From Bartonella sp. M0283 (GTDB lineage Bacteria; Pseudomonadota; Alphaproteobacteria; Rhizobiales; Rhizobiaceae): 64,000 nt of DNA. Position numbers and translations under genes: made by a program. Below, piece after piece: positions 1-18,820 of this stretch (positions within the stretch are counted from its first letter, which is position 1; every line of letters begins with the position of its first letter). A model generated the notes under the pieces. That model made no database searches and was not told the DNA's origin. It worked only from the letters and a program-made list of their open reading frames with translations. Location: the NCBI RefSeq assembly GCF_016100455.1, contig NZ_JACFSK010000001.1, positions 1,798,001-1,862,000 on the forward strand, written 5' to 3'.

Positions 1-573
1 AATCCCTTCAATCAATGAAATATGTGCATTGGCGGAGTTTATAATAGCTTCCTGTCCGCGGTAGAGACGGAACCAAAACCGTCGCGAGTGGGTTTGCAAA
101 GGTTCGACAACCCGAGCTGCAAATATATTGCCTGCGGCTTTGCCCAATGTTTCATCGAAAAGCTTGTCCGCATCCAGAAAGTTATAAGGGTCATTTTCTT
201 CGGCCGACTTTTTCAAATTCTCTGCCGCCATTTTCATTCGTTCGATGTCAACGGCGCCGGCAAAACGCGCGGCATCCCGTGCAAGCAGAACTTCTATCCC
301 CTGACGTACGTCAAGAACACGACCAAAGTCTTGTGGTTCAAGATTGGCAACCCGCACCCCTGAACGGGGGCGAATTTCAAAAAAACCTTCCCATGCCAGC
401 CGCTGTATAGCTTCTCTTACAGGAGTGCGCCCCATTCCGGTTGCGTCGATCAGTGCACGTTCATTGACCACCATGCCCGGCTCGAGAGCCAATGTAACAA
501 TCATGCGTTCCAGACTTCTATAAGCTATGTCCGCCTGACTTTCATTGACTGCCATTACTTTCATATTTTTCAT
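1..573 (-). CDS. GntR/FCD-family transcriptional regulator, 3' end cut by window edge
   Basis: The first 191 residues are present and the frame runs off base 1 without a stop. An N-terminal winged helix-turn-helix (about residues 12-75, with the typical GntR core GRTPVREAIQRL) is followed by the start of an all-helical FCD ligand domain (VLDVRQGIEVLLARDAARF). The start is the ATG at 573 behind AAAGGTAG; a second in-frame ATG lies three codons in. It is transcribed away from the deaminase gene at 748, so the pair shares one intergenic control region containing the palindrome TTGATATATCAA. By position it is the likely local regulator of the hydroxyproline genes, as GntR regulators are in rhizobial hyp clusters. 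Family assignment is firm; the target is inferred. Confidence 0.85.
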   Translation of the reverse strand, partial: MKNMKVMAVNESQADIAYRSLERMIVTLALEPGMVVNERALIDATGMGRTPVREAIQRLAWEGFFEIRPRSGVRVANLEPQDFGRVLDVRQGIEVLLARDAARFAGAVDIERMKMAAENLKKSAEENDPYNFLDADKLFDETLGKAAGNIFAARVVEPLQTHSRRFWFRLYRGQEAIINSANAHISLIEGI

Positions 574-747
574 ATCTACCTTTAATATATCACTTGACAA
601 GCGTAATTTATATGATATTTTTTTGATATATCAATACCTCATAATATTGGGTAGGTAGCAATATATCTGTGATTGTGGCGCCGAGTGCCACTGTCAATTT
701 TGATATCAACAAATAAAATTTGTACGGTCGCTTTGTGGGGAGGAACC
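574..747. promoter_or_regulatory. divergent control region with palindrome TTGATATATCAA
   Basis: AT-rich region between the GntR gene and the hydroxyproline operon. A perfect 12-base palindrome TTGATATATCAA lies at 623-634, and ATATCACTTGACA lies at 587-599. The palindrome is a plausible operator for the adjacent GntR protein. No clean -35/-10 pair with 16-18 base spacing was found, so the promoters are not placed. Confidence 0.45.
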
Positions 748-1740
748 ATGCAAGTGCCAAATAAGGGGAATATTATGGATTCTAGTATATTTTCAGGGGT
801 AATCCCCGCATTAATGACGCCTTGCAAACAGGACCGGACACCGGATTTTTCTGCTCTTGTTGCCAAAGCAAAAGAGCTTATCGCCACAGGGATGTCGGCT
901 GTGGTCTATTGCGGATCAATGGGCGATTGGCCCCTATTGACCGATGAAGAACGTATGGAGGGTGTTGAAAATCTGGTTAAAGCCGGAATTCCGGTTATTG
1001 TCGGCACCGGTGCGGTTAACACGAAAACTGCGGTAAGACATGCGCGTCACGCCCAGAAGGTTGGTGCAAAAGGTTTGATGGTTATTCCGCGCGTTCTCTC
1101 CCGTGGTAGTGTGTTGGCTGCCCAGAAAAACCATTTCAAAGCTATTTTATCGGCAGCACCCGATCTTCCCGCTGTGATTTATAACAGTCCTTATTATGGA
1201 TTTGCTACGCGCGCCGATCTTTTTTTCGCTCTACGGGCAGAACATAAAAACCTGATCGGCTTCAAAGAATTCGGCGGGCCTGACGATATGCGCTATGCCG
1301 CCGAAAACATTACCAGTCGTGATGACAATGTCTCTCTTATGATCGGTGTTGATACAACAGTTGTCCATGGTTATGTCAATTGTGGTGCAACGGGTGCTAT
1401 CACCGGTATAGGCAATGTCTTGCCGAAAGAAGTCATCCACCTGTGTCGTCTGTGTGAAGCCGCAGCAAAGGGGGATGTCGAAGCACGCCAACGTGCTGAA
1501 GAACTCGAGCAAGCTTTGGCTATTCTTTCATCATTCGATGCTGGCCCCGATCTCGTGCTATTTTTCAAACATATGATGGTTGTGAAAGGCGACAAAGCCT
1601 ATAAGCTCCATTTCAATGAAACCGATGAACTCACAGAAAGCCAGCGTGGATTTGTCGAAAAGCAGCTTAAGCTATTTGATACATGGTATAAAAAGTGGAG
1701 TGAATTGCCGGGAGCCGTTCAAAAATACAAAGTCGCATAA
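748..1740 (+). CDS. DapA-family lyase, probable 1-pyrroline-4-hydroxy-2-carboxylate deaminase
   Basis: 330-residue (beta/alpha)8 protein of the dihydrodipicolinate synthase/N-acetylneuraminate lyase family. It has the opening IFSGVIPALMTP, the substrate Tyr in IYNSPYYG and the Schiff-base Lys in IGFKEFGG. The family alone fits several aldol or deamination reactions. The neighbours, a D-amino acid dehydrogenase and a 4-hydroxyproline epimerase, point to HypD, which converts 1-pyrroline-4-hydroxy-2-carboxylate to 2-oxoglutarate semialdehyde with loss of ammonia. I chose the ATG at 748 because GGGGAGG stands four bases upstream; an ATG at 775 (giving MDSSIFSG...) also has a purine-rich site and matches the usual family start. 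An open frame back to 673 lacks a ribosome binding site. Family certain, substrate inferred. Confidence 0.8.
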   Translation: MQVPNKGNIMDSSIFSGVIPALMTPCKQDRTPDFSALVAKAKELIATGMSAVVYCGSMGDWPLLTDEERMEGVENLVKAGIPVIVGTGAVNTKTAVRHARHAQKVGAKGLMVIPRVLSRGSVLAAQKNHFKAILSAAPDLPAVIYNSPYYGFATRADLFFALRAEHKNLIGFKEFGGPDDMRYAAENITSRDDNVSLMIGVDTTVVHGYVNCGATGAITGIGNVLPKEVIHLCRLCEAAAKGDVEARQRAEELEQALAILSSFDAGPDLVLFFKHMMVVKGDKAYKLHFNETDELTESQRGFVEKQLKLFDTWYKKWSELPGAVQKYKVA

Positions 1741-1878
1741 ATAGCTTTTCTAAACAACATTTGGCCGGATGAGTAACGTGCCCGAATTTTATTCGTGACG
1801 TCGGCCAGATGAAAATTCTACATGATTGCATCAGCCCGAAAGACAAAAATCATAATGCTCGGGGGAGGATAATAAGCG

Positions 1879-3120
1879 ATGCAGGCGAAAAAGTCGGTTT
1901 CAATAATCGGAGGCGGTATTGTCGGCGTCGCTACGGCTGCCATTCTCTCTGAAAACGGATATGATGTTACCATCATCGACAGAAGCGGGATATGTGAAGA
2001 AACAAGTGCAGGAAATGCGGGGGCATTTGCATTTACGGACGTATTACCGATTGCTTCAAAAGGCATATTAAGAAAACTACCCGGATGGATGATGGATCCC
2101 TTGGGACCTTTCACAATCCGTCCGACCTACTTGCCAAAACTTATGCCTTGGTTCATTCGTTTCTTGAAGGCAAGCCGAAAAAAAGCCCAATTGGAAACTA
2201 TCAAAGCGCAAGTTGCCATCATGCGTCTTGCAGAGAAGGAAATGATGGGCTTGCTCGCCAGAGCCGAACTTTTGGACGAACTCGGAACCGAAGGTGAACT
2301 TGAGGTTTATGAAAGCGAAAAAGAATTTCAGGCAGCACTTCCAAGTTGGAATTGGCGTGAAAGTTTCGGCATAAAAGTACGCCATATCGGTTCTGATGAA
2401 TTGCACGATATGGTTCCCGGCCTTTCAAAACAATTTGTAAAGGCTTCCTATGTTCCTTCCTGGCGCAATGTGAAGGACCCGAGATTGTTTGGTAAAGCCC
2501 TGTGGTCCTATGCGAGCAGGCTGGGCGCAAAATTTATCAGATTACCAGTTCTTGATCTGTCACAGGATGAAACCGGCGTTACATTGACAACCAGCGCTGA
2601 AAAAATCCAAAGCGATTTTGTGGTTGTCGCTTGTGGTGCATGGTCAAACACATTCGCACGGTCTCTCGGGGATAATATACCGCTTGATACCGAACGCGGT
2701 TATAACACGACGTTACCGGCTGATAGTCTCAAGCTTCAACATCAGGTAACTTTTGGTGGTCATGGTTTTGTTGTTGTTCCACTGAGCACCGGCATAAGGG
2801 TTGGCGGGGCAGTCGAAATGGGCGGACTTGATCTGCCTCCCAATTATAAACGCTCCCAAGTCATGTTGAAAAAAGCGAAGGAATTTTTCCCCGACTTGAA
2901 GCTGGAAAACGGAGTGGAATGGATGGGGTATCGGCCGTCAATCCCCGATGGTTTACCGGTTATTGATTACGCGAAAAACAGCCGACGAATATTATATGCT
3001 TTCGGTCATGGCCATCTTGGCTTGACACAATCAGCCGCCACCGCCCGTCTCATACATAATCTCATTGAACATAAAGAGCCCGCTCTTTCAATTTATCCAT
3101 TTCGTGCCGGGAGGTTTTGA
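1879..3120 (+). CDS. FAD-dependent D-amino acid dehydrogenase, probable D-hydroxyproline dehydrogenase
   Basis: 413 residues of the DAO/DadA-type FAD oxidoreductase family. The N-terminal dinucleotide-binding fold carries IIGGGIVGVATA followed by an acidic end of strand 2 (TIIDR), and the C-terminal FAD contact region reads YAFGHGHLGLTQS. In hydroxyproline catabolism such enzymes (HypO) oxidise cis-4-hydroxy-D-proline to 1-pyrroline-4-hydroxy-2-carboxylate and pass electrons to the respiratory chain. The start at 1879 follows GGGGAGG by about ten bases. It lies 138 bases after the deaminase gene, and the epimerase starts one base after its stop. DadA-like D-alanine dehydrogenase is an alternative on family grounds; the neighbourhood argues for the hydroxyproline role. 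Confidence 0.82.
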   Translation: MQAKKSVSIIGGGIVGVATAAILSENGYDVTIIDRSGICEETSAGNAGAFAFTDVLPIASKGILRKLPGWMMDPLGPFTIRPTYLPKLMPWFIRFLKASRKKAQLETIKAQVAIMRLAEKEMMGLLARAELLDELGTEGELEVYESEKEFQAALPSWNWRESFGIKVRHIGSDELHDMVPGLSKQFVKASYVPSWRNVKDPRLFGKALWSYASRLGAKFIRLPVLDLSQDETGVTLTTSAEKIQSDFVVVACGAWSNTFARSLGDNIPLDTERGYNTTLPADSLKLQHQVTFGGHGFVVVPLSTGIRVGGAVEMGGLDLPPNYKRSQVMLKKAKEFFPDLKLENGVEWMGYRPSIPDGLPVIDYAKNSRRILYAFGHGHLGLTQSAATARLIHNLIEHKEPALSIYPFRAGRF

Positions 3121-3121
3121 C

Positions 3122-4123
3122 ATGGCAAAATATTCGTTTTTCTGTATTGATGGTCATACATGTGGTAATCCTGTTCGTCTGGTTGCCGGTGGTGGTCCGC
3201 TTCTGCAAGGCAACACCATGATGGAAAAACGCCTGCATTTTCTGCGTGAATTCGACTGGATCAGAACCGGTTTGATGTTCGAACCGCGCGGGCATGATAT
3301 GATGTCGGGCTCTATTCTTTATCCATCAACGCGCGATGATTGTGATATCGGCGTTCTCTATATCGAAACTTCCGGATGTTTGCCCATGTGCGGACATGGC
3401 ACAATCGGAACCGTAACAATGGCCATCGAATACGGACTTGTTACGCCACGCATTCCGGGAAAACTCAGTCTGGATACTCCGGCTGGAAAAGTCGACATTA
3501 CATATGAGCAAAATGGCCCTTATGTGGAAAAAGTTCGCCTCACAAATGTGCCGGCTTTCCTTTATAAACAGGACCTTGAGGTCGAATGTCCGGACTTGGG
3601 CCTACTGAAAGTGGATGTCGCTTATGGTGGTAATTTTTATGCAATTGTCGAACCACAAAAAAATTACACCGATATGGCCGACTATAATGCATTAGAGCTT
3701 ATCGCATGGAGCCCTGTTTTAAGAAAAAGGTTGAATGAACTCTACAGCTTCCAGCACCCGCAAAAACCCGAAATCAATGTCTTGAGCCATATTATGTGGA
3801 CAGGAAAACCGACAAAGCCCGGAGCCAATGGGCGCAATGCTGTGTTTTACGGCGATAAAGCCATTGATCGCTCGCCTTGCGGGACAGGAACCTCGGCACG
3901 AATGGCACAACTCACAGCCAAGGGAATTCTGAAAGCCGGTGATAATTTTGTCCATGAATCGATCATCGGTTCTATCTTTGAAGGCCGTGTTGAAAAATTG
4001 ACTGATGTAGAGGGGCTTCCGGCCATTATTCCATCTGTTGCAGGATGGGCGAGAATGACAGGTTTCAACACCATATTTATCGACGATCGCGATCCATATA
4101 AGCACGGTTTCGTCGTTAAATGA
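3122..4123 (+). CDS. 4-hydroxyproline 2-epimerase (proline racemase family)
   Basis: 333 residues, the usual length for 4-hydroxyproline epimerases. Both catalytic cysteines of the proline racemase fold are visible: MCGHGTIG in the N-terminal half and SPCGTGTSARMA in the C-terminal half. The second motif and the Cys/Cys pair distinguish it from trans-3-hydroxyproline dehydratases, which carry Thr or Ser at the second site. It interconverts trans-4-hydroxy-L-proline and cis-4-hydroxy-D-proline, the substrate of the dehydrogenase upstream. An open frame extends back to 3065 inside the dehydrogenase, but the ATG at 3122 lies behind CCGGGAGG and directly after the upstream stop, so it is preferred. 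Last gene of the operon. Confidence 0.9.
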   Translation: MAKYSFFCIDGHTCGNPVRLVAGGGPLLQGNTMMEKRLHFLREFDWIRTGLMFEPRGHDMMSGSILYPSTRDDCDIGVLYIETSGCLPMCGHGTIGTVTMAIEYGLVTPRIPGKLSLDTPAGKVDITYEQNGPYVEKVRLTNVPAFLYKQDLEVECPDLGLLKVDVAYGGNFYAIVEPQKNYTDMADYNALELIAWSPVLRKRLNELYSFQHPQKPEINVLSHIMWTGKPTKPGANGRNAVFYGDKAIDRSPCGTGTSARMAQLTAKGILKAGDNFVHESIIGSIFEGRVEKLTDVEGLPAIIPSVAGWARMTGFNTIFIDDRDPYKHGFVVK

Positions 4124-4159
4124 CCATGCAATAATTGCAAAGAACCATGTTTAAAACAG

Positions 4160-4189
4160 TTGCTCCAGCGGCTTTAAACGCTGGAGCAA
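4160..4189. terminator. hairpin between convergent genes
   Basis: A perfect 11-base-pair stem, TTGCTCCAGCG (4160-4170) with CGCTGGAGCAA (4179-4189), around an 8-base loop, lies between the epimerase (plus) and the glycosyltransferase (minus). There is no strong U-tract on the plus strand; on the minus strand the stem is followed by CTGTTTTAAA, so it probably ends the glycosyltransferase transcript and may serve both. Confidence 0.65.
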
Positions 4190-4194
4190 AAAAT

Positions 4195-5625
4195 TTATTG
4201 GGCTGTTTTTTTCTTAACCTCGTCAAAACCGGTGCGTTTGATTTCGCCCCATGAAGTTTTTCCTGAAAAATATTCTCCGGCGGCTTTTATCCGCCAGAAT
4301 GTATTGATTTGTCGATAGCCGAAACATTCGATGATTGAAGACAGAAAAAGAATAAATATGTATTTTGCTTTACGCAAAAAACCAAGATGCATTTGTTCAA
4401 GCGATATTGAAAACAAGCTGACGAATATTCCATACATGAACGCCATAAAAATGAACGAGAGTAAAAACTCAAACGTCATGGCTTTGAAATAAAAGACAAT
4501 CGGAAAAAGAATATAGCTGAATAGTTCCAGCAGTGGATTTACAACATCAATAACAAACACTATCGGCATACCGACAAAACCGATGCGTCCATAGCGTCTG
4601 TTGAACATAATATCCTGATGGCGAAAATAAACTTCCAAAGCGCCTCTTTGCCAACGCGTACGTTGTTTGGCAAGAACAGAAAGACTTTCCGGCGCTTCCG
4701 TCCAACAAACAGCATCGGGTACAAAAGTAATACGATAATCGCGTTTGTTTTCCAGCATATATCGATGTAGCTTGATCACCAGATCAAAATCTTCGCCCAC
4801 GGATCCTCTGGTATAACCGCCAACAGCCATAACTTCACGTCGACTAAAGACGCCGAAAGCACCGGATATCAATGTCAAAGTATTGACGTAGCTCCACGCT
4901 ACACGAGCCATTAAAAACGCACGCAAATATTCCAGAATTTGAAAATAAACAAGAAAATTGAAGCGGATGGCAACGCGCGTCAACCGGCCAGAATTGATTT
5001 TGGAGCCATTGGCTATCATCACACTTCCACCCACCGCAACTGTGCGCGCCGGATCGTCAATAAAAGGCTGTACCATGCGCAAAAGACCATCCGGTTCCAG
5101 AATAGTATCGGCATCCACCATACAAAGAAGCGACATACGAGAAACGCTGATGCCTGCATTTTGCGCGTCTGCCTTGCCTCCATTTTCCTTGTCCACTACG
5201 ACAAGGCGACCGAATTTTTTTGAAACATAGATATTACGGATGGGATTGAAAGCCAGAATTGTTTCATATTCTCTATTGCTCTCTTCCAGTTCGAATTCTT
5301 TGATCAATTCGTCGAGCATGTTATCTTTTGAGCCGTCATTGACAATGATGACCTCGAAAGCCGGATAGTCGAGCGAGATCAGAGAATAAACCGACTGGAC
5401 GATGTTTTTCTCTTCATTATAAGCCGGAACGATGATCGAGATTGGTGGTGCGGTATCAAAATAACGATGCCAAAGAAGACCATTCTTCGGCACTGCGGCA
5501 CGGCTGAAATAGGCATAAAGAGCCAAAAACAGCTGAACCAGCATGATGATGACCCACAAACTGAAAAAAATAAATATAATGGAAAACGTTACGGTAAAAA
5601 GCCAAAACTTTAGCGAGTCAATCAT
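4195..5625 (-). CDS. processive family 2 glycosyltransferase (polysaccharide synthase)
   Basis: 476-residue inner-membrane enzyme of the cellulose synthase/PgaC/hyaluronan synthase type. A membrane segment at about residues 10-40 leads into the GT-A domain: ISIIVPAYNEE, VNDGSKD (first Asp), KENGGKADAQN, VDADT (DxD-like), then GEDFDL and the processive signature QRTRWQRG. At least three further hydrophobic segments follow (around VGMPIVFVIDVV, LFSYILFPIVFYF and YIFILFLSSII). It would polymerise a nucleotide-activated sugar and pass the chain through the inner membrane. It is the last of three overlapping genes (ATGA overlap at 5622-5625) behind a HEAT-repeat membrane protein and a TPR/beta-barrel protein. 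The sugar cannot be read from sequence; poly-GlcNAc and beta-glucan are both possible. Confidence 0.85.
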   Translation of the reverse strand: MIDSLKFWLFTVTFSIIFIFFSLWVIIMLVQLFLALYAYFSRAAVPKNGLLWHRYFDTAPPISIIVPAYNEEKNIVQSVYSLISLDYPAFEVIIVNDGSKDNMLDELIKEFELEESNREYETILAFNPIRNIYVSKKFGRLVVVDKENGGKADAQNAGISVSRMSLLCMVDADTILEPDGLLRMVQPFIDDPARTVAVGGSVMIANGSKINSGRLTRVAIRFNFLVYFQILEYLRAFLMARVAWSYVNTLTLISGAFGVFSRREVMAVGGYTRGSVGEDFDLVIKLHRYMLENKRDYRITFVPDAVCWTEAPESLSVLAKQRTRWQRGALEVYFRHQDIMFNRRYGRIGFVGMPIVFVIDVVNPLLELFSYILFPIVFYFKAMTFEFLLSFIFMAFMYGIFVSLFSISLEQMHLGFLRKAKYIFILFLSSIIECFGYRQINTFWRIKAAGEYFSGKTSWGEIKRTGFDEVKKKTAQ

Positions 5626-6653
5626 TCTATTTTCTCGCTCCTCAGAAAAAAAGCAGCAGCTCTTTTTGCTCGTGGGCTGCCATTCTGTCTGGTATGTTCC
5701 AATATTTTATGCCCACGATCTCCCGTCTTCAGTAATGCCTTGCCGGCCGCATAAAGCACCGGTAACGCGTCATCATCCAGAAGATTTGCAAATACTCTGT
5801 TAAATTGTTCGATATCGATTTCCTCGTCATTCAACGAAACGGTTTCACTATACCGGTCATCGGCCTTATCGTCTTCCGGTATTTTGAAAATAGGCTCTTT
5901 ATATTCTTTGGATGTAGGTAAATTGTTTTCGCTTGCAATATTAATTTTTTGTGTCATCGCTAATGATACAGTTTCAACGCCGGCATTTTGAGCCAATATA
6001 TTGATTGCATCACAGCGCATAAGCGGCGGCATAACTGTGAGACTGGCTACGTTGGCCAGTTTTTCAACACGACTTTCATTTTCCACATCAGGTCTTAAAT
6101 AATTACTTACGTCTGTTTTTGAGTTCGGCAGGCTTGAAACAACATCATAGAGCCACCATGGAGCATCATTCTCCATTAAAGCGATAGCCGAAGCGAGACG
6201 AACTTTTTTCGAAACATCCTTCAACCCGTCATGTAAAACTTTTTGAGCTGTTTTATCCGGAAACAATGCAAGGGTTTCGATAATTTGCACACGCTTCGAA
6301 CGTGAAGAAAAACGCATTTTTTTGGCCAACACTTTAACCAAACCCTTTTGAATAAAATATTCAATGGCCAATTGATGCTTTTCTTTATCCGGAATAGCCC
6401 GAAAGTAAGGCACAAGACGCAGAAGTTGCCGCGTTGAAAATTTTTTCTTCTGTTTTCGAGTTATTTCGCCCTGTTCCAGACTATCCAAAAATACCTCGAA
6501 TTTTTCTCTAAGTTTGATCATCCGCTTATGATCGTTGCGCATTCTGATATGATAGACGATCATGACGACCAGCATTAATACTGCCAGACCAGCATAAACA
6601 AGGCCTATAAAAATTGCCCCCATTATCCATTGAATGTTAATGTTGATCATCAA
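5622..6653 (-). CDS. HEAT-repeat inner-membrane protein of the polysaccharide locus
   Basis: 343 residues. One N-terminal membrane helix (about residues 8-35, MGAIFIGLVYAGLAVLMLVV) is followed by a basic linker and a cytoplasm-facing alpha-solenoid. Helical repeats read like HEAT units, for example QIIETLALFPDKTAQKVLHDGLKD with KKVRLASAIALMENDAP, and near the end LPVLYAAGKALLKTGDRGHKIL with SPRAKRAAAFFLRS. A charged, probably disordered stretch (about residues 235-280) separates the two halves. It overlaps its neighbours by four bases on both sides, so all three are translated together. A scaffold or regulator of the synthase is a reasonable guess; no enzymatic motif is visible, and I know no characterised counterpart. 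Confidence 0.75.
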   Translation of the reverse strand: MMININIQWIMGAIFIGLVYAGLAVLMLVVMIVYHIRMRNDHKRMIKLREKFEVFLDSLEQGEITRKQKKKFSTRQLLRLVPYFRAIPDKEKHQLAIEYFIQKGLVKVLAKKMRFSSRSKRVQIIETLALFPDKTAQKVLHDGLKDVSKKVRLASAIALMENDAPWWLYDVVSSLPNSKTDVSNYLRPDVENESRVEKLANVASLTVMPPLMRCDAINILAQNAGVETVSLAMTQKINIASENNLPTSKEYKEPIFKIPEDDKADDRYSETVSLNDEEIDIEQFNRVFANLLDDDALPVLYAAGKALLKTGDRGHKILEHTRQNGSPRAKRAAAFFLRSEKIE

Positions 6654-9499
6654 AAACGCCGCGTCAAATTCAAACCATAAACCAAGCGATTATAAGCATT
6701 CGTACGTTGTTCCTTGGCCAAATTAACACCAATTGTTAAGTCTTCATTTATATCCAACGCAATATTTCCGAATATCGTCTTTGTCGGGATAAGTATATCA
6801 CCTGACGATTCCAGCGTACTCGAATATCCTATATTAAAATAAAACCGGTCGAAAGGATTAGTATCTGCGCGAAAAAGATAACCGCCCGAATGTCGGTTCT
6901 TCTGGTCAATTATATTAATCCATTGGGCAAATATAGTCATACGATCTTTGAAGAAAGTTTGCTTCAAGCCGGGCGTTATGGTTTTGACTACGCCATTGTC
7001 ATACCATTCGCTTTTGGTATCGAGTGTCGCTCCAAGCATGCCGACTTTTCCCAGTCTACCGATGTTGGTGCTACCTCCCGCACGTAAAATATATTGTGCC
7101 AGAAAATCTGCGTCCGGTGTGACAACACCCGACAAATAGGCCCAAACAGTCGGTCGGAATTGATGGGCAATTGCGAGCTCGATCTGCTGGTCATCCATAC
7201 TGAAACGATTGGAAAGACCCAACCGCCCGGTCAGTATCGTTGCTTCTGACAATTGATAGGAAAGCGCTAAGCCACCTTCCCGCCAGTTTTTATAAGGTGC
7301 AGTCAACTCGCTATAAGTACTATCAATGTCAAGACGCCACCGTTTACGGATAGGCCTTTGGATACGCTCGAGAACTTCTTTATCGTCAGGGGCAATTATA
7401 CGGGCCTGATCATAATCATTAATAGCTTCCCGATCACGCAAAAGGCCACGTTTGGCATCCCCCATGCCTAACCATGCCTGAAGATTTTTATTATTTTTCT
7501 TTATAATGCGGTTATAGACGGTAATCGCCCGCCTATATTGATGTTCAGCCATATAAAGCGCCGCGTCGGACAAAGCCACGTCTTCGTTTTCAGGGTAACG
7601 AAGCAACAATACATCAATACGGCGTCTCGCCAGCGCATAATCATTTTGCCAAAGCGCTACATTCACTTTGCCGAGTGAGGCTTCGAGAGCATCCGGTGAA
7701 ATTTCGAGAGCCTGATCGAATATTTTATCAGCTTCAGCAAATTTTTTCTGAAATGATAGAACATTGCCGAGCTTTATTAACAGATCAACATTATGAGGCG
7801 TTAATGATAAAGCCTGTCGATAAAGGGCTTCCGCATCAGCGAAGTTTTTTCCTGAAGAAACAATTTGCGACGCTTGCTCAGCCAGATGATTACTCTCGGC
7901 AAGATGCGGGTTGTCTTTGTCCATCCCGTTGGACGAATTGCCAGTAACGCCATATTTGGCGATTTTGATTTTTAAAGCGATTGCTCGTTCAATTTCTTTT
8001 AACAGGCTCGTCAATTCTTCATTGTCGGGTGACTGCGACAATGCCATTTCGCAAAGAGCTTTTGCTTTACCAAGCTCCCCCTTCCAATAGGCGATACGTG
8101 CCAAGCCCAAATTCGCATCGGTATAATCTGGTGCTATCATTAGAGCCCGACTAAAATTTTCTTTTGCCGCATCCAAATCTCCTAGAGCAAGAAGTGTAAG
8201 CCCCAATTGAACAAGGATATCCGCATTGTCCGGTTCGAGAGCTAAAGCAGCTTCAAAATGCTGTTTTGCAAGATCAAAATGCTGGGCTTTCCGTTCATTG
8301 CTGCCAATTTCGTATAACTGACCCACATTTTTCTGCTCGCTGTCTAAAACATCATTGGATGGTTCGACAGAAAGCTTTTCATTATCCGTTTTATTTTCCG
8401 TCTGTGAAAATTTTATGGCGTTGTCTATACGAAATTTAAAGTCGCGCGTAACAGAATTTTCCGGCTCTACCGATATGACATGATCGACCATTTCCTTGGC
8501 TGCAAAGAAATCACCTTGCCAATACAATATTGCGGCTTTTCCCAGTTTTGCCAAACTCAGCGTTGGCGCCAGGCGCAGAGCTTTTTCAAAATCTGCTTGA
8601 GCTTCCTCCACTTTGCCCATCGAGAGAAATATGAAACCACGTTTGGCCAAATCATCAGCCACATTACGAAAAGGGGCATTTAACCCGATAGCGGGAGCAA
8701 ACTTAAAAAAATAATTGCCCGTCTCTCTTATAGTGTCGGGAAAATTGTCAGATCCTGCAATTTGCTCGACCTCGTCATAGTCTTTTTTGCAAAAATTGAG
8801 ATTTGTTGACTCCAAATCAGATATCGATGGCGAGAGAATAACAGAATTCACTTTGACTATCTGCTTTAGCTTTTTCTGATAAGTTATCGCATTCAATACT
8901 TCTGTTTGAAGTGACTTCACTTCCTCATTATCCGGCTTTAATGCCAATATTTCTTCAGTGTAATGCTTTGCCTCTTCAAGATTGTTATGCGCGTAATCTA
9001 TTTTCACCAAACCGGTTTTTGCCTCGATATCATCGGGAACCATTACGAGCAGTTGACGAAATATCGGCTCTGCTCTGTCAAGTTCGCCGAGCCCCATGAA
9101 AGACATCCCCAATTCTCTCAAAATATCGGGATTGTCAGGTGACAAAGCAGACGCTTTTTCCAGTTTATCGATGGCTTCTTGATAATGCCCCTCTCGTCGC
9201 GCTTGATAGCCCTGTTCAAAAAGGACTTTAGCATTATTATTCAACAGCGGGCGGCTTTTCATTCCGGGTGGCGGCGCTTTTTCAAGTGGAATATCAAAAT
9301 TCAAAGGAGTTCCACCAAGCGCAAAGGATTTTTTATCTACCAGTTTCCGAAGGTTGCGAATTGACCGAAAATCATCATTTTTCTGTGTTTCTGCCGACGG
9401 CTGCCCATATGCCGACGCAGTGAAAAACACTCCTGAACACGAGATGATCGCTATCAACAGTCTGAAAAAACGTTTATTATTGCGTCTTTGACAAGCCAC
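6650..9499 (-). CDS. TPR-rich outer membrane protein with C-terminal YaiO-type beta-barrel
   Basis: 949 residues. A Sec signal peptide (LLIAIISCSGVFFTASAYG) is followed by many tetratricopeptide repeats (about residues 90-710). From about 720 the composition changes to alternating beta strands ending in ...LNLTRRF, the terminal Phe typical of outer-membrane barrels; this part resembles the YaiO family. Four TPR modules repeat at roughly 150-residue intervals, each containing a variant of ALxxxPDxxxAxLGLAxIxYWxG (about 160, 310, 455 and 600). The architecture, periplasmic TPRs plus a barrel, is that of polysaccharide exporters such as PgaA, BcsC and AlgK/AlgE, though the roughly 230-residue barrel is smaller than PgaA's. 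First of three overlapping genes, so it probably forms the exit pore or docking site for the polymer. Confidence 0.8.
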   Translation of the reverse strand: MACQRRNNKRFFRLLIAIISCSGVFFTASAYGQPSAETQKNDDFRSIRNLRKLVDKKSFALGGTPLNFDIPLEKAPPPGMKSRPLLNNNAKVLFEQGYQARREGHYQEAIDKLEKASALSPDNPDILRELGMSFMGLGELDRAEPIFRQLLVMVPDDIEAKTGLVKIDYAHNNLEEAKHYTEEILALKPDNEEVKSLQTEVLNAITYQKKLKQIVKVNSVILSPSISDLESTNLNFCKKDYDEVEQIAGSDNFPDTIRETGNYFFKFAPAIGLNAPFRNVADDLAKRGFIFLSMGKVEEAQADFEKALRLAPTLSLAKLGKAAILYWQGDFFAAKEMVDHVISVEPENSVTRDFKFRIDNAIKFSQTENKTDNEKLSVEPSNDVLDSEQKNVGQLYEIGSNERKAQHFDLAKQHFEAALALEPDNADILVQLGLTLLALGDLDAAKENFSRALMIAPDYTDANLGLARIAYWKGELGKAKALCEMALSQSPDNEELTSLLKEIERAIALKIKIAKYGVTGNSSNGMDKDNPHLAESNHLAEQASQIVSSGKNFADAEALYRQALSLTPHNVDLLIKLGNVLSFQKKFAEADKIFDQALEISPDALEASLGKVNVALWQNDYALARRRIDVLLLRYPENEDVALSDAALYMAEHQYRRAITVYNRIIKKNNKNLQAWLGMGDAKRGLLRDREAINDYDQARIIAPDDKEVLERIQRPIRKRWRLDIDSTYSELTAPYKNWREGGLALSYQLSEATILTGRLGLSNRFSMDDQQIELAIAHQFRPTVWAYLSGVVTPDADFLAQYILRAGGSTNIGRLGKVGMLGATLDTKSEWYDNGVVKTITPGLKQTFFKDRMTIFAQWINIIDQKNRHSGGYLFRADTNPFDRFYFNIGYSSTLESSGDILIPTKTIFGNIALDINEDLTIGVNLAKEQRTNAYNRLVYGLNLTRRF

Positions 9500-9746
9500 G
9501 TAACCACCACGCTTCTTGTCAGAATAAATCTACACCCGTTATCTAACAAGAAATCTTTAATTTTTAATGATGCGACCCACAAAATATACGTGAAAGCTAA
9601 ATAAATCGTTTACCTTGTTTATCCAGAGATTGTTTATAAAAAACTTTTCGACCCGTTATGATTTCAAATCGGAATTATTCTAAAAGACTGTATCATAGGT
9701 TGATATTTTCTTAGCATAATACTGCGGCTTGGTTACTCATCGTTCT
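9500..9746. promoter_or_regulatory. 247-base gap upstream of the TPR/barrel operon
   Basis: AT-rich spacer between the TPR/barrel gene and the upstream TIM-barrel gene, both on the minus strand. It must hold the promoter of the three-gene operon unless transcription reads through from 11414. I saw no hairpin with a U-tract after the upstream stop codon, so read-through is possible. Confidence 0.3.
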
Positions 9747-11414
9747 TCAAAGAAGACCGTGAATTGCCAATCCGTTGAAACTGCTAAAGGCTTTGAAATA
9801 TGGATGTAAACGCGAGAGAACGCCGTTTAAATCTTCTGTCCGCTTGAGAAAGCTTATTTTGTCAGCTTCCGGTTGTTCGATATGATCAAATTGATAGACT
9901 GTTTTATCTTTCCTATTGTCAGTCCTTGAGAGAACAAGAAGAACAGATCTGTAATTATGTTTGTTTGTCTCTGTTGAAGGTGTGAAATAAACTTTTGCCG
10001 GCCCGTTAACCGGCCCGTTTTCCAAGGCGACAGAAATTTTTGTATTGAATTTTTCTCCCCACATTAACCAACGCGCAGAAATAGCATTTATTTCCTTTTC
10101 GTTGGTCCGGTAAATCATAACAGTAAAACTTCCCAGATCCTTGATGCTGTCCAAAGCATTTTTACCGGCACTGCTATTCTGTATCCAGTAGGGAATGATG
10201 ACATCAATTGGTCCGGCCCAAATTTCATGCATTTTCATCAAAGTTGCGGCCCAGTTAACCCACATTCTGGATGGGTCCGCGGAATGTTTCGGATCGGTAT
10301 AAGGCTCTATGTCAAATTGCAGTCCCGCAAGCTTTGTATTTTCGGGAAGCCGTTTTTGGAATGCCGCTAATGTTTGAGCTCTTTGAAATGCAAGATCTTG
10401 ACCTTTTCCTGTAATCATATCCGCATCCCCTTCAACTGCATAAACATCAATCGATCTTTTATGCGCCTCGCCAAGAAACTCGACGAGCTGTTCTTCATCA
10501 ACAATGACATTATCCTGAATATCAATCTGAACATAAAGTTTGCTGATATGATAATGTTGTGCCCAATCAAGTAAATTAGCGGGTGAGTGAAGCCAATCCT
10601 GTTTGTGCCAAACCCAAGTGGCAATTGAATTTTCACTCGTGTCATTTTTCATCGTTATCGCGGCAATATCGAATTGCGCAGCCTCTTTAGGGCATTCGAT
10701 TATGATCTTGCTACTGGTTTTTTCTGATGAGGACAGTTCAAACAAATCGAAATCTTCCCGATCATCTGTCTTGGATTTCTTTTCAGAATGAACAGGAAAG
10801 GTCTTTGCATCATCCGGTACTGAATTGTCTTTGTCCGCAAAACCTACTTTGAACCGACTGTCTGCTCTGCCACTTATTACTAAAGATGAATTGGTCGTTT
10901 TCGGAAAGCTTCTGAGCGGGGCACTGAGAGCCAAGCCAGCACGCTCTTTTCCGGAATGACAAGTCAAACTTAAAATTCCATTTTTCTCCTGAAGCCTGAC
11001 GCGTCCTTCCAGTGAAAATAAAGACCGGTCCATCTGACTTAACAAATTATGATTTTGCCCTTCGGGTGTTTCCTGATATTCTGTATTCCTACTTTTTACG
11101 TTTTTGTCCGTAGCCACTGGCGTTGAAGCAATTGTCAGAACTGTATTTGACGGGAAAAACCGGTTCGCTTTATATTCACCTTCCAATTGGATTAAGGCCG
11201 GTTTTTCTTCAGATCTATCTATCGTTCCTACCCACGATAAATATAAACCGGATGTGGTATCAATATGCGGGCAAGCACTATCCGTAGCTCCGTCGCCATT
11301 ATCCGTCGTGCTATATAGACATAATTTATCGGACATCGCATTACTCACATTAAAGGCCGACAAGAGAAGAGCCGATAAAGCCAATATCCATGTAGAATGG
11401 AGCAACCTTCCCAT
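9747..11414 (-). CDS. secreted two-domain protein with TIM-barrel, possible glycoside hydrolase
   Basis: 555 residues. A signal peptide (WILALSALLLSAFNVSNA) is followed by a beta-rich domain with no family I recognise (about residues 30-255) and a region that reads as a (beta/alpha)8 barrel (about 262-550). Barrel features are WVWH at the first strand, ISKLYVQIDI, SIDVYAVEGD, and GLQFDIEPYTD (about 365-374), whose D-x-E pair resembles the catalytic strand of GH18-like and PgaB C-terminal hydrolases; IDVIIPYW and FTVMIYR follow. It lies just upstream of the TPR/barrel, HEAT and glycosyltransferase genes on the same strand, the place of a periplasmic modifying or cleaving enzyme in exopolysaccharide operons. 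No NodB-type deacetylase motif is visible. Activity is inferred from fold and position only. Confidence 0.6.
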   Translation of the reverse strand: MGRLLHSTWILALSALLLSAFNVSNAMSDKLCLYSTTDNGDGATDSACPHIDTTSGLYLSWVGTIDRSEEKPALIQLEGEYKANRFFPSNTVLTIASTPVATDKNVKSRNTEYQETPEGQNHNLLSQMDRSLFSLEGRVRLQEKNGILSLTCHSGKERAGLALSAPLRSFPKTTNSSLVISGRADSRFKVGFADKDNSVPDDAKTFPVHSEKKSKTDDREDFDLFELSSSEKTSSKIIIECPKEAAQFDIAAITMKNDTSENSIATWVWHKQDWLHSPANLLDWAQHYHISKLYVQIDIQDNVIVDEEQLVEFLGEAHKRSIDVYAVEGDADMITGKGQDLAFQRAQTLAAFQKRLPENTKLAGLQFDIEPYTDPKHSADPSRMWVNWAATLMKMHEIWAGPIDVIIPYWIQNSSAGKNALDSIKDLGSFTVMIYRTNEKEINAISARWLMWGEKFNTKISVALENGPVNGPAKVYFTPSTETNKHNYRSVLLVLSRTDNRKDKTVYQFDHIEQPEADKISFLKRTEDLNGVLSRLHPYFKAFSSFNGLAIHGLL

Positions 11415-12287
11415 AAGCTAATTCCCTGAATTGTGCTGATTTTTATCTTGCAAATTATATAACAATGTCACCCGAGTTGAACAACCTTATAAAAAGGTTC
11501 CTCCTGTCAGACAAACAAATTCAGAAAATAAATGTTATATTCGATTTTTCAATCTATAAAAATTTTATAATAAATAATATTATCATTTTAAATGTAAAAC
11601 ATATGTTATTCAAATATTTCAATTAAATTTTTTATATTACTAAATATTTTTATTAAATCGCGTTTAAATTTTAAATTTATTATTATTGTTTCAAAAATAA
11701 TATAAGGTGAACCGTCGCAAATTGAACTCCGCTTTTTCCAAACAGAGTCTGCACGCCATAAAACATGATAAAATAACGCTGTAATTCACTTTCCGGTTTT
11801 ATAATTTTGCCATGGACTGGTAAGAAAAAACGGCATCCGGTCTCGTGGAAATAATCTCGTTCGCTTCTCGGCAGCTTGGTTGAAAAGGGGGGCATTTCAT
11901 CCGACTATAGTGAAAAGCAATATATTTTTGCTCCTGTTATTATAGCCGGTTTAGCCAATCCGGAAGAAGCCAAAACACTGGAAATTTACCGTGGTTATAG
12001 GGCTATATTCTATGATCGTCATGATTATTGTTCCTTTTTAACTAAATCATGCACTTCACCCCCTGAAGCGCGGGATACAAAAAGTTTTAAAGTGAATAGC
12101 TACATGGATATGGCGGATACTCGTCCACAAAGCCCTGATATGCGGTGGGCATTTCCATCATAACCAATAATCATTCCATCAGAAAAAGCAGCAGACAAAA
12201 TACAAAAAAGCGACAGACAGAATATGTGTGCATTTTCTTTGTTTTGGAGGAAATCCATTATTGCGGGCAAACTTCCAATTTATCCGG
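11415..12287. other. 873-base gap, AT-rich, with no supported gene
   Basis: The part nearest the TIM-barrel gene (about 11440-11700) is extremely AT-rich and probably carries its promoter. From 11700 to 12270 composition is more gene-like, and open frames of 70-95 codons exist on both strands (11683-11895 minus, 11876-12163 plus), but none has a convincing ribosome binding site or a recognisable family. It may be the remnant of a decayed gene. Confidence 0.5.
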
Positions 12288-13292
12288 TTATCTATTTTTC
12301 AGATCAGACAGTGTATCTGCCAGAGTTTTCTCTAAAGGTCTGAATTGAAGCCCCAGAATTTTTTCATATCTTTCACTGCTGAAATGCGTTCTATCATATT
12401 GGCTTGCCATCAAACGGACCGAAGCCAATGATAATAAAATGGGCTTGCCTGTAAGCTTGCGATAAAGTTCCTGCAAAAAAGCGATGCAGTACAATAGCGG
12501 CATTGGCATGGTCTTTGTTGGCGTTTTGACATTGGCATAATGACCGATCATGGATACAAGGTCTTTCATCTGAATGTGACGGCCAGCAGCAAGATAACGT
12601 TCTCCAGGCTTGCCTTTAAGCGTGACCATGATTAGGGCAGCCGCAACGTCTCTTGCATCAACGACCGAAAAGGTCCCTGGAACAATGGCAGGCAATTTCC
12701 CGTTCATGACATCAAGCGCAAGTTGTCCGGCCGAGGTAGGCCCTATATCACCGGACCCCCACATCCACCCCGGTAAAATATAATAACATTTCATCGTCGG
12801 ATGCAGAGCGGCAAATTCTCTGACTGTTCTTTCACTGATGATTTTGCTCCGATAGTAATCATCCGAATTTTCTATATTTCTATCACATGTTTCATCAATC
12901 AATGTGCCAGCCTCACCATCAAGAACTGCAATTGAAGAAACATGAACAAACTGTTTGACACCGGCTTTTAAGGCCGCATCCAATAGGGATTTTGTACCAT
13001 TAATATTGATGTTTTCGAGATCAGCCCAATGGCTGCCGCCTTTATAATTGTCGCGGAAAAAAGCAGCTGTGTGAAAAACACTTTCGCATCCATTCAAATG
13101 GCTTTCGAAGCTAGAGACATCGGTCATATCGCCTTGGATGATATCAAGTTCATCATGAGGCGCGAATTGCTTGTTTGCCTTTTGTCGCGACCGGACCAAT
13201 GCTTTGACATGATAACCTTCGGCGAGCAATTGACGAACCAGATTATTGCCCAATAGTCCGGTGGCACCCGTTACGAAAACTGTTTTCTTCAT
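12288..13292 (-). CDS. NAD(P)-dependent epimerase/dehydratase (extended SDR, dihydroflavonol reductase-like)
   Basis: 334 residues of the extended short-chain dehydrogenase family. A Rossmann motif VTGATGLLGNNLVRQLL opens the protein; FVHVSSIAVL and the catalytic YYRSK (Tyr-x-x-x-Lys) follow, then the ILPGWMWGSGD substrate loop. Such enzymes reduce or epimerise aldehydes, ketones or sugar nucleotides; the substrate is unknown. The ATG at 13292 is preferred; a TTG at 13304 would add four residues. It is divergent from the TetR regulator at 13391 with an 98-base shared region full of inverted repeats, so it is the probable TetR target. Confidence 0.85.
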   Translation of the reverse strand: MKKTVFVTGATGLLGNNLVRQLLAEGYHVKALVRSRQKANKQFAPHDELDIIQGDMTDVSSFESHLNGCESVFHTAAFFRDNYKGGSHWADLENININGTKSLLDAALKAGVKQFVHVSSIAVLDGEAGTLIDETCDRNIENSDDYYRSKIISERTVREFAALHPTMKCYYILPGWMWGSGDIGPTSAGQLALDVMNGKLPAIVPGTFSVVDARDVAAALIMVTLKGKPGERYLAAGRHIQMKDLVSMIGHYANVKTPTKTMPMPLLYCIAFLQELYRKLTGKPILLSLASVRLMASQYDRTHFSSERYEKILGLQFRPLEKTLADTLSDLKNR

Positions 13293-13390
13293 CAACGATT
13301 CCAAATATCAAATGAAATTCATATATCAAGTGATATTTATGGTTCATTTGCCGACTTGTCAAATGAAATGTCGGATGATATCTGAAGTTT
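13293..13390. promoter_or_regulatory. divergent operator region between SDR gene and TetR gene
   Basis: ATATCA-AG-TGATAT forms an inverted repeat at 13323-13336. CAAATGAA occurs at 13309-13316 and 13360-13367, with its reverse complement TTCATTTG at 13343-13350. TetR regulators usually bind such repeats between themselves and their divergent target, so autoregulation and control of the reductase are likely. Confidence 0.55.
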
Positions 13391-14008
13391 ATGGTCAAAC
13401 AGATAAAACCGCGTAAAACAAGATTGGAAAGCCAGCAAGAGACACGCCAGAACCTGTTGGAAGCTGCACGCATGCTATTCACAGAATTGGGCTACGAGGC
13501 AACCTCCATTAGAGGAATCTGTGATAAAGCGGGCTATTCACAAGGAGCCTTTTATTCCAATTTCAATAATAAGGGCGAAGTTCTTTTAGAGCTTCTCGAG
13601 CAGTATAAATCCTTCGAGGCAAATTCACGAAAACAGCTCATTGATGATGCAGGGGATGATTTTGAAAAGGCCCTGACTGATATGATCTTGTGGTTTGAAC
13701 GTAATGATCAAAATATTTCCCACACAATTCTGTTCCTTGAAATGCAACTTCACGCTTTGCGCCATCCGACATTTGTAAAAACTTATAATAATCTTATGGA
13801 CGAACAAAAATCGTTCTATACGAAGCTCGTGCAACATCTGTTTGCTATGAGAAATATAGAACCTCCCTTTGATTGCTCGATTGTTGCTGAAGGGTTAATG
13901 GCACTTGGGGCTAATGAAGCAGTTGCCAGACGATTGAACCCGAAGCGGGAGAAGCAAAATCCCTTTTCGGCCTATCTGAAATTGATTTTTCAGATAGAAG
14001 AGGAATAG
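13391..14008 (+). CDS. TetR-family transcriptional regulator
   Basis: 205 residues. The N-terminal DNA-binding domain (about residues 15-65) has the TetR layout: helix RQNLLEAARMLFTELGYEATSI, then the helix-turn-helix with IRGICDKAGYSQGAFYSNFNNKGEVLLELL. The C-terminal ligand domain is helical and unspecific. Start ATG at 13391; the upstream ribosome binding site is weak. Divergent from the NAD-dependent reductase, with inverted repeats between the two, so it probably represses that gene and itself until a small ligand binds. Confidence 0.9.
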   Translation: MVKQIKPRKTRLESQQETRQNLLEAARMLFTELGYEATSIRGICDKAGYSQGAFYSNFNNKGEVLLELLEQYKSFEANSRKQLIDDAGDDFEKALTDMILWFERNDQNISHTILFLEMQLHALRHPTFVKTYNNLMDEQKSFYTKLVQHLFAMRNIEPPFDCSIVAEGLMALGANEAVARRLNPKREKQNPFSAYLKLIFQIEEE

Positions 14009-14506
14009 ACACGTTCGAAGCTCGTAGACCGGTATATTGATCATATAGGCAAGAAATATTTCTCTGCCTCTTTTTCATGAATAGTTATAAACCGGTTTCA
14101 CTATTAATGGCCTGACAAATTTCCGATCTGAGGTAAAGCAAGATAACAACGACCAATTTTTTTGGAATTTCATTGACTAAACATCGGCTTTATCACTCAC
14201 AAATTTATATATAGGCTGATTTATTATCCAAACACCTGATCTGCTTTTATATAAAATTTTATTTTCAAATAACTGCATAAAACTTATAGACTAACAGTCT
14301 CTTGGCCCGAGTAAATTCGTTGGCCGTCCCTGATCAGGCTCTGTTACCGCCCAAGCAAGGCAAAATTTTTTTGCATGAAATGAAAGCAGCATTTTGATTT
14401 TTTAAAATTGAGGAATAAACTCATCTTAAACTTGATACCATAATCAAACACCCATGACCAACTCATATGACCATTGCTAACGAATAATTTTTACCGGAGG
14501 TAGATG
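14009..14506. other. 498-base gap; promoter region of the ABC-NnrS operon
   Basis: No gene is supported here. Two inverted repeats lie near the downstream operon: TGAG-N7-CTCA (about 14410-14424) and TTGAT-ACCATA-ATCAA at 14432-14447. The latter has FNR-like half sites but a six-base rather than four-base spacer. The ribosome binding site CGGAGG is at 14495-14500. Confidence 0.4.
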
Positions 14507-15490
14507 ATGCTTACTCAAACACGCCGTCATTTTTTAATTGGCGCTTCACTTCTTCCTGTTGTTTGCGCATTTCCTTCTATTGCCGCTGCCGACGAAAAAA
14601 AACCGGTAATATGGGGGCCTCCGGCAGGTCCTTCTATCGTCGCGGCTTATGCAGTAAAAACCGGCATGTTGGAAGATTTGCTACCCGGTTGCCAATTCAA
14701 AGTTTGGAATAATCCCGATCAAATCAGAGCCGGTCTCGGTTCCGGCTCAATCAATATGGCCATTTTGCCGAGTTATAGCGGCGCGAATTTATATAATAAA
14801 GGTCTTGGTGTAAGATTGGCGAATATTCTGACAGACGGGCTTCTTTATATCGTTGCACCGAAAGCATCCAACATCAAAACACTTCAGGACCTTGTCGGTA
14901 AGAAACTTGCTGTACCATTCAAAAACGATATGCCCGACTATATTATGCAGGCAATTTTAAAAGCCTATGACATCAAGCCGAATGCAATCGACATACAATA
15001 TACGGGGAGCCTCCCCGAAGCTATGCCGCTTCTCATGATCGGACGTGTCGATGCGGCAGTCATTGTGGAACCTGCTGCCTCTACAGTGATTTCCATGAGC
15101 ACGGCATCCCCTAAAAAAATTGTTCGGGCTCTCGATATTCAAAAACTTTGGGAAAAAGTTTCGAAAACCGATGCTATTCCGCAAGCCGGACTTGTTGTTG
15201 GCAAAGGTTTCGAAGGCGACGAAGGAAAAGACAAAATAAAAGCGCTCAATGCATGTTTTTCTGATGCACTTGAAAAAATTAAAGCTGACCCCGAAAAAGC
15301 AGCCGACGAGATCAGCGGTCTTCTCGATTTTCCGCCGCGCCTGATAGCCGCATCCATCGCTTTCAGTCATCTTGTTGTTCATAATGCAAGCGAAGTGAAA
15401 CCGGCGCTGGAAACATTTTTCAATGTTCTTATCGAACAAAATTCTGCAATTTTGGGCGGCAAACTGCCTGATGATGGATTTTATGCCTGA
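14507..15490 (+). CDS. ABC transporter substrate-binding protein, NitT/TauT type
   Basis: 327 residues. The N-terminus TRRHFLIGASLLPVVCAFPSIAAA has a twin-Arg followed by a hydrophobic core, consistent with a Tat-type signal peptide. The mature part follows the NMT1/SsuA/NrtA fold: GPPAGPSIVAAYAVKTG, a central LVGKKLAVPFKND hinge and GRVDAAVIVEPA. Two adjacent ATG codons (14504, 14507) follow CGGAGG; the second has the better spacing. The stop overlaps the permease start (TGATG). Families of this type carry nitrate, sulfonates, pyrimidine precursors and others, so the ligand cannot be named. The operon ends in nnrS, which suggests a link to nitrogen oxide metabolism. Confidence 0.85.
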   Translation: MLTQTRRHFLIGASLLPVVCAFPSIAAADEKKPVIWGPPAGPSIVAAYAVKTGMLEDLLPGCQFKVWNNPDQIRAGLGSGSINMAILPSYSGANLYNKGLGVRLANILTDGLLYIVAPKASNIKTLQDLVGKKLAVPFKNDMPDYIMQAILKAYDIKPNAIDIQYTGSLPEAMPLLMIGRVDAAVIVEPAASTVISMSTASPKKIVRALDIQKLWEKVSKTDAIPQAGLVVGKGFEGDEGKDKIKALNACFSDALEKIKADPEKAADEISGLLDFPPRLIAASIAFSHLVVHNASEVKPALETFFNVLIEQNSAILGGKLPDDGFYA

Positions 15491-17033: not shown

Positions 17034-17037
17034 CGCA

Positions 17038-18237: not shown

Positions 18238-18744
18238 CCAATATATGGTCGCCTGATTAGCCTGATGGACATCCATAAATTACGGCACTTCTAAAAAACA
18301 ATTGACGACGTAAAACATAAAAATTAACGATCGCTACAAAAAATTATATTATAAATATAGTTCATATTGAATATATGTTTAATTTTTTATTTTAATTAAA
18401 ATTAATAAAATATATAATTGATAAAAATAAATACTAAAATAAATATATATAAAATATTTTTATTTATTGTATTGAATAAACAAATCAATCAATTAAACAA
18501 AACATAATATTTTTTGATTCATACGATAGTTTTTTATGGTATAAACTAAAATTATCAGTTAAATGCGTCGAAAAAATATGCATGGTGCTGGATATCGGCA
18601 GTACACTTCTTTATAATGCATTGTAACTATTATTATTTTCCAGTTTTGTTTTTTAAAATGTGTTACATTTTTGGCTAAAGTGTCGATATCTTAAAAATCA
18701 GAAATAAAAAACATAATAAAAACAAATATTTACATGATTTTTAT
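18238..18744. other. 507-base very AT-rich gap without genes
   Basis: Between nnrS and the tRNA gene. About 18290-18560 is almost only A and T, with runs such as TATAATT and AAATATTTT. No open frame, hairpin terminator or repeat array could be supported. The T-rich stretch directly below 18745 (reading on the minus strand) may end tRNA transcription. Confidence 0.5.
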
Positions 18745-18820
18745 TGGTGCCGCATGCCGGAATCGAACCAGCGACCCCATCATTACGAATGACGTGCTCT
18801 ACCAACTGAGCTAATGCGGC
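18745..18820 (-). tRNA. tRNA-Thr, anticodon CGU
   Basis: The reverse complement folds as a full cloverleaf: acceptor GCCGCAT with ATGCGGC, D-stem GCTC/GAGC around AGTTGGTA, anticodon stem CGTCA/TGATG with loop TTCGTAA (anticodon CGT, reading ACG threonine codons), and T-loop GGTTCGATTCC. The discriminator A and an encoded CCA complete 76 bases. Confidence 0.97.

Follow-up and report, generated by a model that had tools for sequence, protein, structure and literature searches.

A HEAT-repeat protein as the usual partner of a family 2 glycosyltransferase and a YaiO-type barrel at a putative exopolysaccharide locus of Bartonella sp. M0283

The window analyzed here, a stretch of 64,000 nucleotides from Bartonella sp. 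M0283 (contig NZ_JACFSK010000001.1, positions 1,798,001 to 1,862,000), carries on its minus strand a four-gene locus that probably encodes an exopolysaccharide or surface glycan module of the synthase-dependent type, in which a cytoplasmic HEAT-repeat protein, and not a known cyclic di-GMP (c-di-GMP) domain, partners the synthase. The four open reading frames (ORFs) had been picked out in a sequence-only reading and are all present where it placed them, as follows: a gene for a secreted TIM-barrel protein (TIM; 9747..11414, 555 residues), a gene for a tetratricopeptide repeat (TPR) protein that ends in a YaiO-type barrel (YaiO; 6650..9499, 949 residues), a HEAT gene (5622..6653, 343 residues), and a gene for a family 2 glycosyltransferase (GT2; 4195..5625, 476 residues). 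The observations behind our proposal are gene order, domains, motifs, co-inheritance, and predicted topology. The host, whose genome is 2.68 Mb, is by sequence a Bartonella near B. apihabitans, which we take to be a bee-gut species; the window TIM protein is 84-85% identical, in the best segment, to those of an uncultured Bartonella and of B. apihabitans BBC0178.

The gene order is found again in further genera and in a second class of the phylum and is therefore beyond chance. YaiO loci were sampled with the model TIGR04390 over its cut-off, so that most loci were reached through YaiO and not through HEAT. Sample 1, drawn from 385 genomes of the class and 398 of the phylum, gave 19 loci outside the host's own genome, and sample 2, drawn from 274 genomes of another class of the phylum (the class of G549), gave 16 new loci in 15 new genomes. 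A HEAT gene is found in 28 of these 35 loci and lies directly beside YaiO in 25. For sample 1 the counts are 16 of 19 and 15 (HEAT is missing from G677, G736, and G821); for sample 2 they are 12 of 16 and 10 (missing from L111, L113, L114, and L125). The order is HEAT-GT2-YaiO in L047, two genes separate YaiO from HEAT in L112, the HEAT gene of L072 is partial, and only a 91-residue HEAT piece was read in L116, about 0.9 kb past an interrupted YaiO; the YaiO positions in L116 and L124 come from the TIGR04390 search of sample 2 and not from the locus profile. The next same-strand gene after HEAT is GT2 in 15/16 cases in sample 1 and 10/12 in sample 2, an itemized 25 of 28 beside a summary tally of 26 of 28. 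HEAT loci lacking an adjoining GT2 are L024 and L119, both cut by a contig end, and L121, where GT2 is reversed. YaiO matches below the cut-off (G223, G269 C12, and G878 in sample 1, G1114 in sample 2) were not counted, and the G223 and G269 C12 loci have no core genes. A HEAT search of 151 genomes of the family found three with a match, the host included, adding loci G013 and G086. By these sequence comparisons, members of this GT2 clade usually have HEAT as their partner. The earlier proposal of a new accessory subunit is supported in that HEAT belongs to the unit, but the protein is not peculiar to the Bartonella locus.

A synteny search across the Hyphomicrobiales, advised by the sequence-only reading, was positive there and beyond. 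Plasmid pMESCI01 of Mesorhizobium ciceri WSM1271 carries an ATP-binding protein, two response regulators, YaiO, HEAT, GT2, and Hpt, in that order. A plasmid of Devosia sp. A8/3-2 carries a PAS protein, two response regulators, TIM (annotated as hypothetical), a response regulator, TPR, HEAT, a glycosyltransferase, a hypothetical gene, and Hpt. Both sets share the core order with the window, and Devosia shares TIM as well; they differ from it in having response regulators, Hpt, and a gene of kinase type, labeled "ATP-binding protein" in one case and "PAS domain S-box protein" in the other, and they are annotated gene by gene under no system name. No description of a HEAT/YaiO/GT2 system was found in the literature searched by title and abstract start, a search with subscription journals mostly outside its coverage.

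GT2 matches PF13641 of Pfam with 87 bits. Residues D97, D171, D173, E278, D279, Q321, R322, R324, and W325 are kept in at least 18 of 19 non-redundant loci, and in the alignment of 19 rows the QRTRW at residues 321-325 (4651..4665, minus strand) is the QxxRW motif. The D/D/D, ED, and QxxRW residue set marks processive synthases. A hydrophobicity scan finds one hydrophobic segment in the N-terminal part of GT2 and three in the C-terminal part; with QxxRW and the GT2 domain, they give the protein the sequence features expected of an inner-membrane polysaccharide synthase. In BcsA, QxxRW has been tied to polymerization (PMC7112194).

The YaiO protein begins with a hydrophobic N terminus, read as a signal, and its TPRs start at about residue 90. 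The C-terminal barrel (residues 721-949, 6653..7339, minus strand; last residue phenylalanine) belongs to the YaiO family, with 88 bits for TIGR04390 against a cut-off of 32 and 30.2 bits for PF19413 against 23.9. Since TPRs and barrel are joined in one protein, a periplasmic TPR region and an outer-membrane pore are both accounted for, the pore role being a prediction. At 949 residues, the protein is long in comparison with the non-Bartonella ORFs of the first sample (247-585 residues).

Conceivably, the product of GT2 is a glycan, short or lipid-linked, with which lipopolysaccharide or an outer-membrane protein is decorated, and the YaiO barrel serves for anchoring or modification and not for export. 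The barrel is small, the product of the locus is not established, and the GT2 family also contains non-processive enzymes. We nevertheless regard this alternative as unlikely, in that the conserved QxxRW, the TPR-barrel fusion, and a secreted partner resembling hydrolases suit a chain on its way across the periplasm.

Synthase-dependent exopolysaccharide systems share four features, namely an inner-membrane synthase, a c-di-GMP-binding domain or co-polymerase, a periplasmic modifying enzyme, and a periplasmic TPR region with an outer-membrane pore; five such systems are listed, defined partly by c-di-GMP control (PMC7112194). The second feature is where our locus departs. Neither PilZ nor MshEN occurs in the complete Pfam lists (E 0.1) of GT2, with its seven matches, of HEAT, or of TIM, in line with what the sequence-only reading had said of PilZ; for the TPR protein, the check covered the best 25 of 39 matches. 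The host genome has one GGDEF match. The HEAT protein may take the place of the c-di-GMP domain, although a c-di-GMP site of another kind may also exist.

Is the locus then a divergent form of the PNAG system Pga (PgaABCD), with a PgaC-like GT2, a PgaA-like TPR barrel, HEAT for PgaD, and TIM for the hydrolase domain of PgaB? The division of labor is alike, as Pga too combines a GT2 synthase and a small inner-membrane partner with TPRs, an outer-membrane barrel, and a hydrolase domain. PgaC_IcaA (TIGR03937) is the best NCBIfam model for GT2, and among the three E. coli GT2s compared, PgaC comes nearest (80 bits). But the TIGR03937 score is 145.5 bits, far below the cut-off of 422.3, and PGA_TPR_OMP (TIGR03939) gives the YaiO protein 106.4 bits against 366.65. 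The barrel is of the YaiO type, as the sequence-only reading had it. At E 10, phmmer finds no match of the window HEAT protein or barrel to E. coli PgaA, PgaB, PgaD, or YaiO. Neither the four proteins nor the seven neighboring ORFs scanned include a deacetylase, as the sequence-only reading had noted for its part, and those seven lack PgaD as well. In a quick tree, all 24 GT2 rows from triplet loci form one clade (SH-aLRT 98), apart from YaiP, NfrB, three HEAT-less loci, and PgaC, whose branch is long; the exact root is unsure because the outgroup branches are long. A Pga locus in this sense is rather improbable.

Two further E. coli systems invite comparison. The yaiO-yaiX-yaiP-yaiS region likewise has a YaiO-type barrel near a GT2 gene, but no HEAT gene is annotated nearby, the annotation there lists instead a putative deacetylase and what may be an acyltransferase fragment, and YaiP is far from our GT2 (26 bits). 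The NCBIfam "phage receptor" model NF007302 (PRK09782), which we take to be NfrA, scores 28.7 on the YaiO protein against a cut-off of 1223, probably through the TPRs alone. That the locus is a relative of Nfr/NGR (NfrA, NfrB, YbcH), whose TPR barrel NfrA and GT2 NfrB make a surface glycan that is the receptor of phage N4, is very improbable: in both, a GT2 synthase goes together with a TPR-barrel protein (PMC8669469), but the 476-residue GT2 lacks MshEN and has no phmmer match to the GT region of NfrB at E 10.

The window HEAT protein scores 26.5 bits with HEAT_2 of Pfam, just below the cut-off of 27.7; four relatives scanned give 59-154 bits. A model predicted from three sequences begins with a long helix and continues in helix pairs, at low confidence (mean pLDDT 54). 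The hydrophobic N-terminal segment (residues 1-38, 6540..6653, minus strand) is followed by a basic stretch, HIRMRNDHKRM. Lysines and arginines flanking the membrane helix were counted in 25 HEAT ORFs, and in 20 of them the excess is on the C-terminal side (3-7 versus 0-2 on the N-terminal side). The rows of the window, L012, L013, and L046, in which the scan called two neighboring segments and the flank counts are zero, are uninformative as scored, and the partial L072 ORF has no helix above threshold. Because the relatives follow the positive-inside pattern, the solenoid would face the cytoplasm; that is, HEAT is most likely a one-helix membrane anchor with a cytoplasmic α solenoid. HEAT is therefore more plausibly a regulator of the synthase, or a scaffold for it, than a part of the export path.

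HEAT is the most divergent of the three core proteins (0.31 identity between two Bartonella lineages), as might be expected of a passenger from an unrelated complex, but this is extremely improbable, for HEAT keeps company with YaiO and GT2 across two classes of the phylum, in loci mostly reached through YaiO, and the pairwise identities of HEAT and GT2 correlate (r 0.88), of which shared ancestry alone explains part. The sequence-only reading had named two outcomes that would speak against polymer secretion, a GT2 of non-processive type and HEAT/TPR genes that belong to an unrelated, known complex. Neither was found, because GT2 keeps the processive motif set and HEAT belongs to the unit. Synteny and motifs thus support a synthase-dependent secretion locus, the polymer itself being inferred.

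The TIM protein has a signal peptide by eye, which the hydrophobicity scan did not call, and an N-terminal region of ~230 residues precedes a glycoside hydrolase (GH)-like TIM barrel at about residues 257-477. No Pfam family is matched at E 0.1 in seven members, and the call of a barrel rests on profile, fold, and motif evidence. A profile search of the PDB matches 10yv_A (E 1.8e-6), labeled "Putative GH97 from Cellulomonas fimi". Foldseek gives no match at E ≤ 0.001 for either of two predicted models, and the fold matches listed do not separate GH families. All seven aligned rows keep D368, E370, Y435, and E465; the DxE motif, D368-I-E370 (10305..10313, minus strand), reads G-x-Q-(F/Y)-D-(I/V)-E-(P/S)-Y in six of the seven. 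With a GH-like barrel and an invariant DxE, TIM looks like a secreted glycoside-hydrolase-like protein and is a candidate for the modifying enzyme of a synthase-dependent system. Its occurrence is narrower than that of the core. The TIM profile finds 3 of 398 genomes of the phylum (the host, G162, and G606), and TIM is present in 5 of 30 non-Bartonella HEAT loci (L023, L029, L030, L047, and L118); the Devosia protein is 63% identical to that of L030. Two TIM matches on Bacillaceae plasmids have unrelated gene surroundings. In L118 (5020-10905; G1166, another class of the phylum), the order is TIM-YaiO-HEAT-GT2 with no receiver, parallel to Bartonella. The TIM gene of B. apihabitans BBC0178 (L013, 10001-11663) is split into three ORFs that overlap one another; the YaiO, HEAT, and GT2 frames there are open, and intact TIM copies occur in relatives. 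In L047 (6668-9972; G606), YaiO is separated from a short TIM protein by a 793-residue protein of sulfatase fold, possibly a transferase that modifies the polymer.

A feature of most relatives is missing at the window locus and hence could not be seen from the window alone. Of the 30 non-Bartonella HEAT loci, 23 have a gene for a receiver-domain protein immediately upstream of YaiO. The fraction is 17/18 for the HEAT loci of sample 1 together with G013 and G086, the exception being L047, but only 6/12 for sample 2, where we had expected at least 80%. In L115 the receiver ORF lies inside an over-long YaiO ORF, upstream of the barrel. Four of the six receiver-less loci of sample 2 (L112, L116, L117, and L124) form a subgroup of low-scoring GT2s (361-429 bits), three of which adjoin, by eye, sugar-nucleotide epimerase-like genes; L118 has TIM in place of the receiver, and L121 has neither. 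Of 17 receiver ORFs from the first set, 16 have 126-165 residues and are too short for a second domain, and that of L025 (398 residues) has two receiver domains. The three scanned with Pfam (L030, L025, and L071) show receiver domains and no output domain over the cut-off. Apart from the receiver of L025, which was not aligned, the phosphoacceptor Asp is kept in 15 of 16 (Glu in L073) and the Lys in 14 of 16 (Arg in L073 and L074). A kinase core is found in 11 and Hpt in 6 of the 18 stretches of the first set, and a kinase in only one of the 12 loci of sample 2 (L115).

No receiver is found at the seven Bartonella loci, which lie in the same 7 of 61 Bartonella genomes that carry both GT2 (E 1e-60) and TIM; these carriers fall into two lineages with flanking gene clusters common to both. 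The Bartonella GT2 rows form one clade (support 100) beside the receiver-bearing rows of the same family and M. ciceri (99), a position that favors, at the sequence level, loss of the receiver in the Bartonella lineage. The gap between TIM and YaiO (9500..9746, minus strand; 247 bases) is where the receiver gene sits in L023, L030, and Devosia. A search of three short gaps for a receiver remnant gave one 20-residue match in this gap (E 0.008), which in so tiny a search we take as chance, and only E 0.31 and 1.5 in the other two. A distant receiver serving the locus was also considered; of the 18 receiver matches in the Bartonella genome, the two with the shortest frames give no pointer to one, their best matches among the 16 upstream receivers being 31-33% over 119-124 residues, as with any receiver. 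Nor is there a clean case for relaxed constraint on HEAT upon receiver loss. Between the two Bartonella lineages, the ratio of HEAT to YaiO identity (0.48-0.52, nine pairs) is below that of all 105 pairs among 15 receiver-bearing loci (minimum 0.66; L024 and L072, cut or partial, excluded), but the HEAT/GT2 ratio (0.42-0.46) is inside the 0.36-0.87 range of the 34 of these pairs with GT2 identity of at least 0.55. Judged by these identities, the unusual conservation in Bartonella is in YaiO.

In the synthase-dependent module that we favor, polymer production, transport, trimming, and control would proceed as follows. GT2 would polymerize a nucleotide sugar at the inner membrane and pass the chain to the periplasm, where the TPR array of the 949-residue protein would guide it to the outer-membrane YaiO barrel at the C terminus of that protein, and the secreted TIM protein would cut or trim it. 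HEAT, anchored by one helix, would lie as a solenoid beside the GT2 catalytic domain in the cytoplasm and hold or switch the synthase. In most relatives, HEAT would act together with a stand-alone receiver, itself supplied by a histidine kinase or Hpt, and we infer phosphorelay control through HEAT. We tentatively suggest, as a possibility short of an even chance, that the phosphorylated stand-alone receiver docks on the membrane-tethered solenoid and turns on GT2, replacing the role of c-di-GMP in Pga, Bcs, and Nfr, and that Bartonella is a derived case in which the receiver was lost and the solenoid kept. It follows that a Bartonella operon with no receiver gene would have a synthase that is constitutive or otherwise controlled.

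HEAT and GT2 overlap by four bases (ATGA). The four-base overlap proposed for YaiO and HEAT requires HEAT to begin with the TTG at 6653; with the next-codon ATG it is one base (TGATG). As 247 bases separate TIM from YaiO, it is not certain that TIM is co-transcribed. A terminator-like stem (4160..4189, minus strand; 11 pairs, seven of them G-C) lies directly 3′ of the GT2 stop, in a region with 10 terminator-like sites against 7.8 expected in shuffles. The promoter scan was uninformative (23 promoter-like sites, 20.0 expected), and an Rfam scan of window positions 1-20000 matched only a tRNA (18748-18820).

Among the neighbors, window 12288-13304, upstream, holds an NAD-dependent epimerase/dehydratase-family gene, by eye of the reductase type and not counted as a sugar epimerase. 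The 95-residue ORF at 11876-12163 has no Pfam match and resembles a piece of a 752-residue protein, by eye TonB-dependent-receptor-like; it looks like a remnant because the counterpart is whole in L013 (4746-7004). Consecutive genes for a DHDPS-family protein, a DAO-type FAD oxidoreductase, and a proline racemase family protein (window 673-4123) look like a hydroxyproline breakdown cluster. In other genomes, sugar-nucleotide epimerase-like genes adjoin the core genes, by eye, in L025, L116, L117, and L124, a hint that the sugar of some members is a UDP-sugar 4-epimer. The HEAT-less YaiO loci L064, L065, and L067 have other genes in common and are possibly a second type of YaiO system; in L065, a polysaccharide-deacetylase family is matched weakly (E 2.9e-4; 21.2 bits against a cut-off of 23.1).

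If the HEAT-partnered module is as we propose, a widespread relative, often with its own receiver and kinase, would be added to the five systems listed in PMC7112194, the main text of which contains neither "HEAT" nor "YaiO". It would also suggest that synthases can be controlled directly by phosphorylation. For Bartonella, the locus offers four testable genes in a bee-gut symbiont, and these may make a surface glycan relevant to gut colonization.

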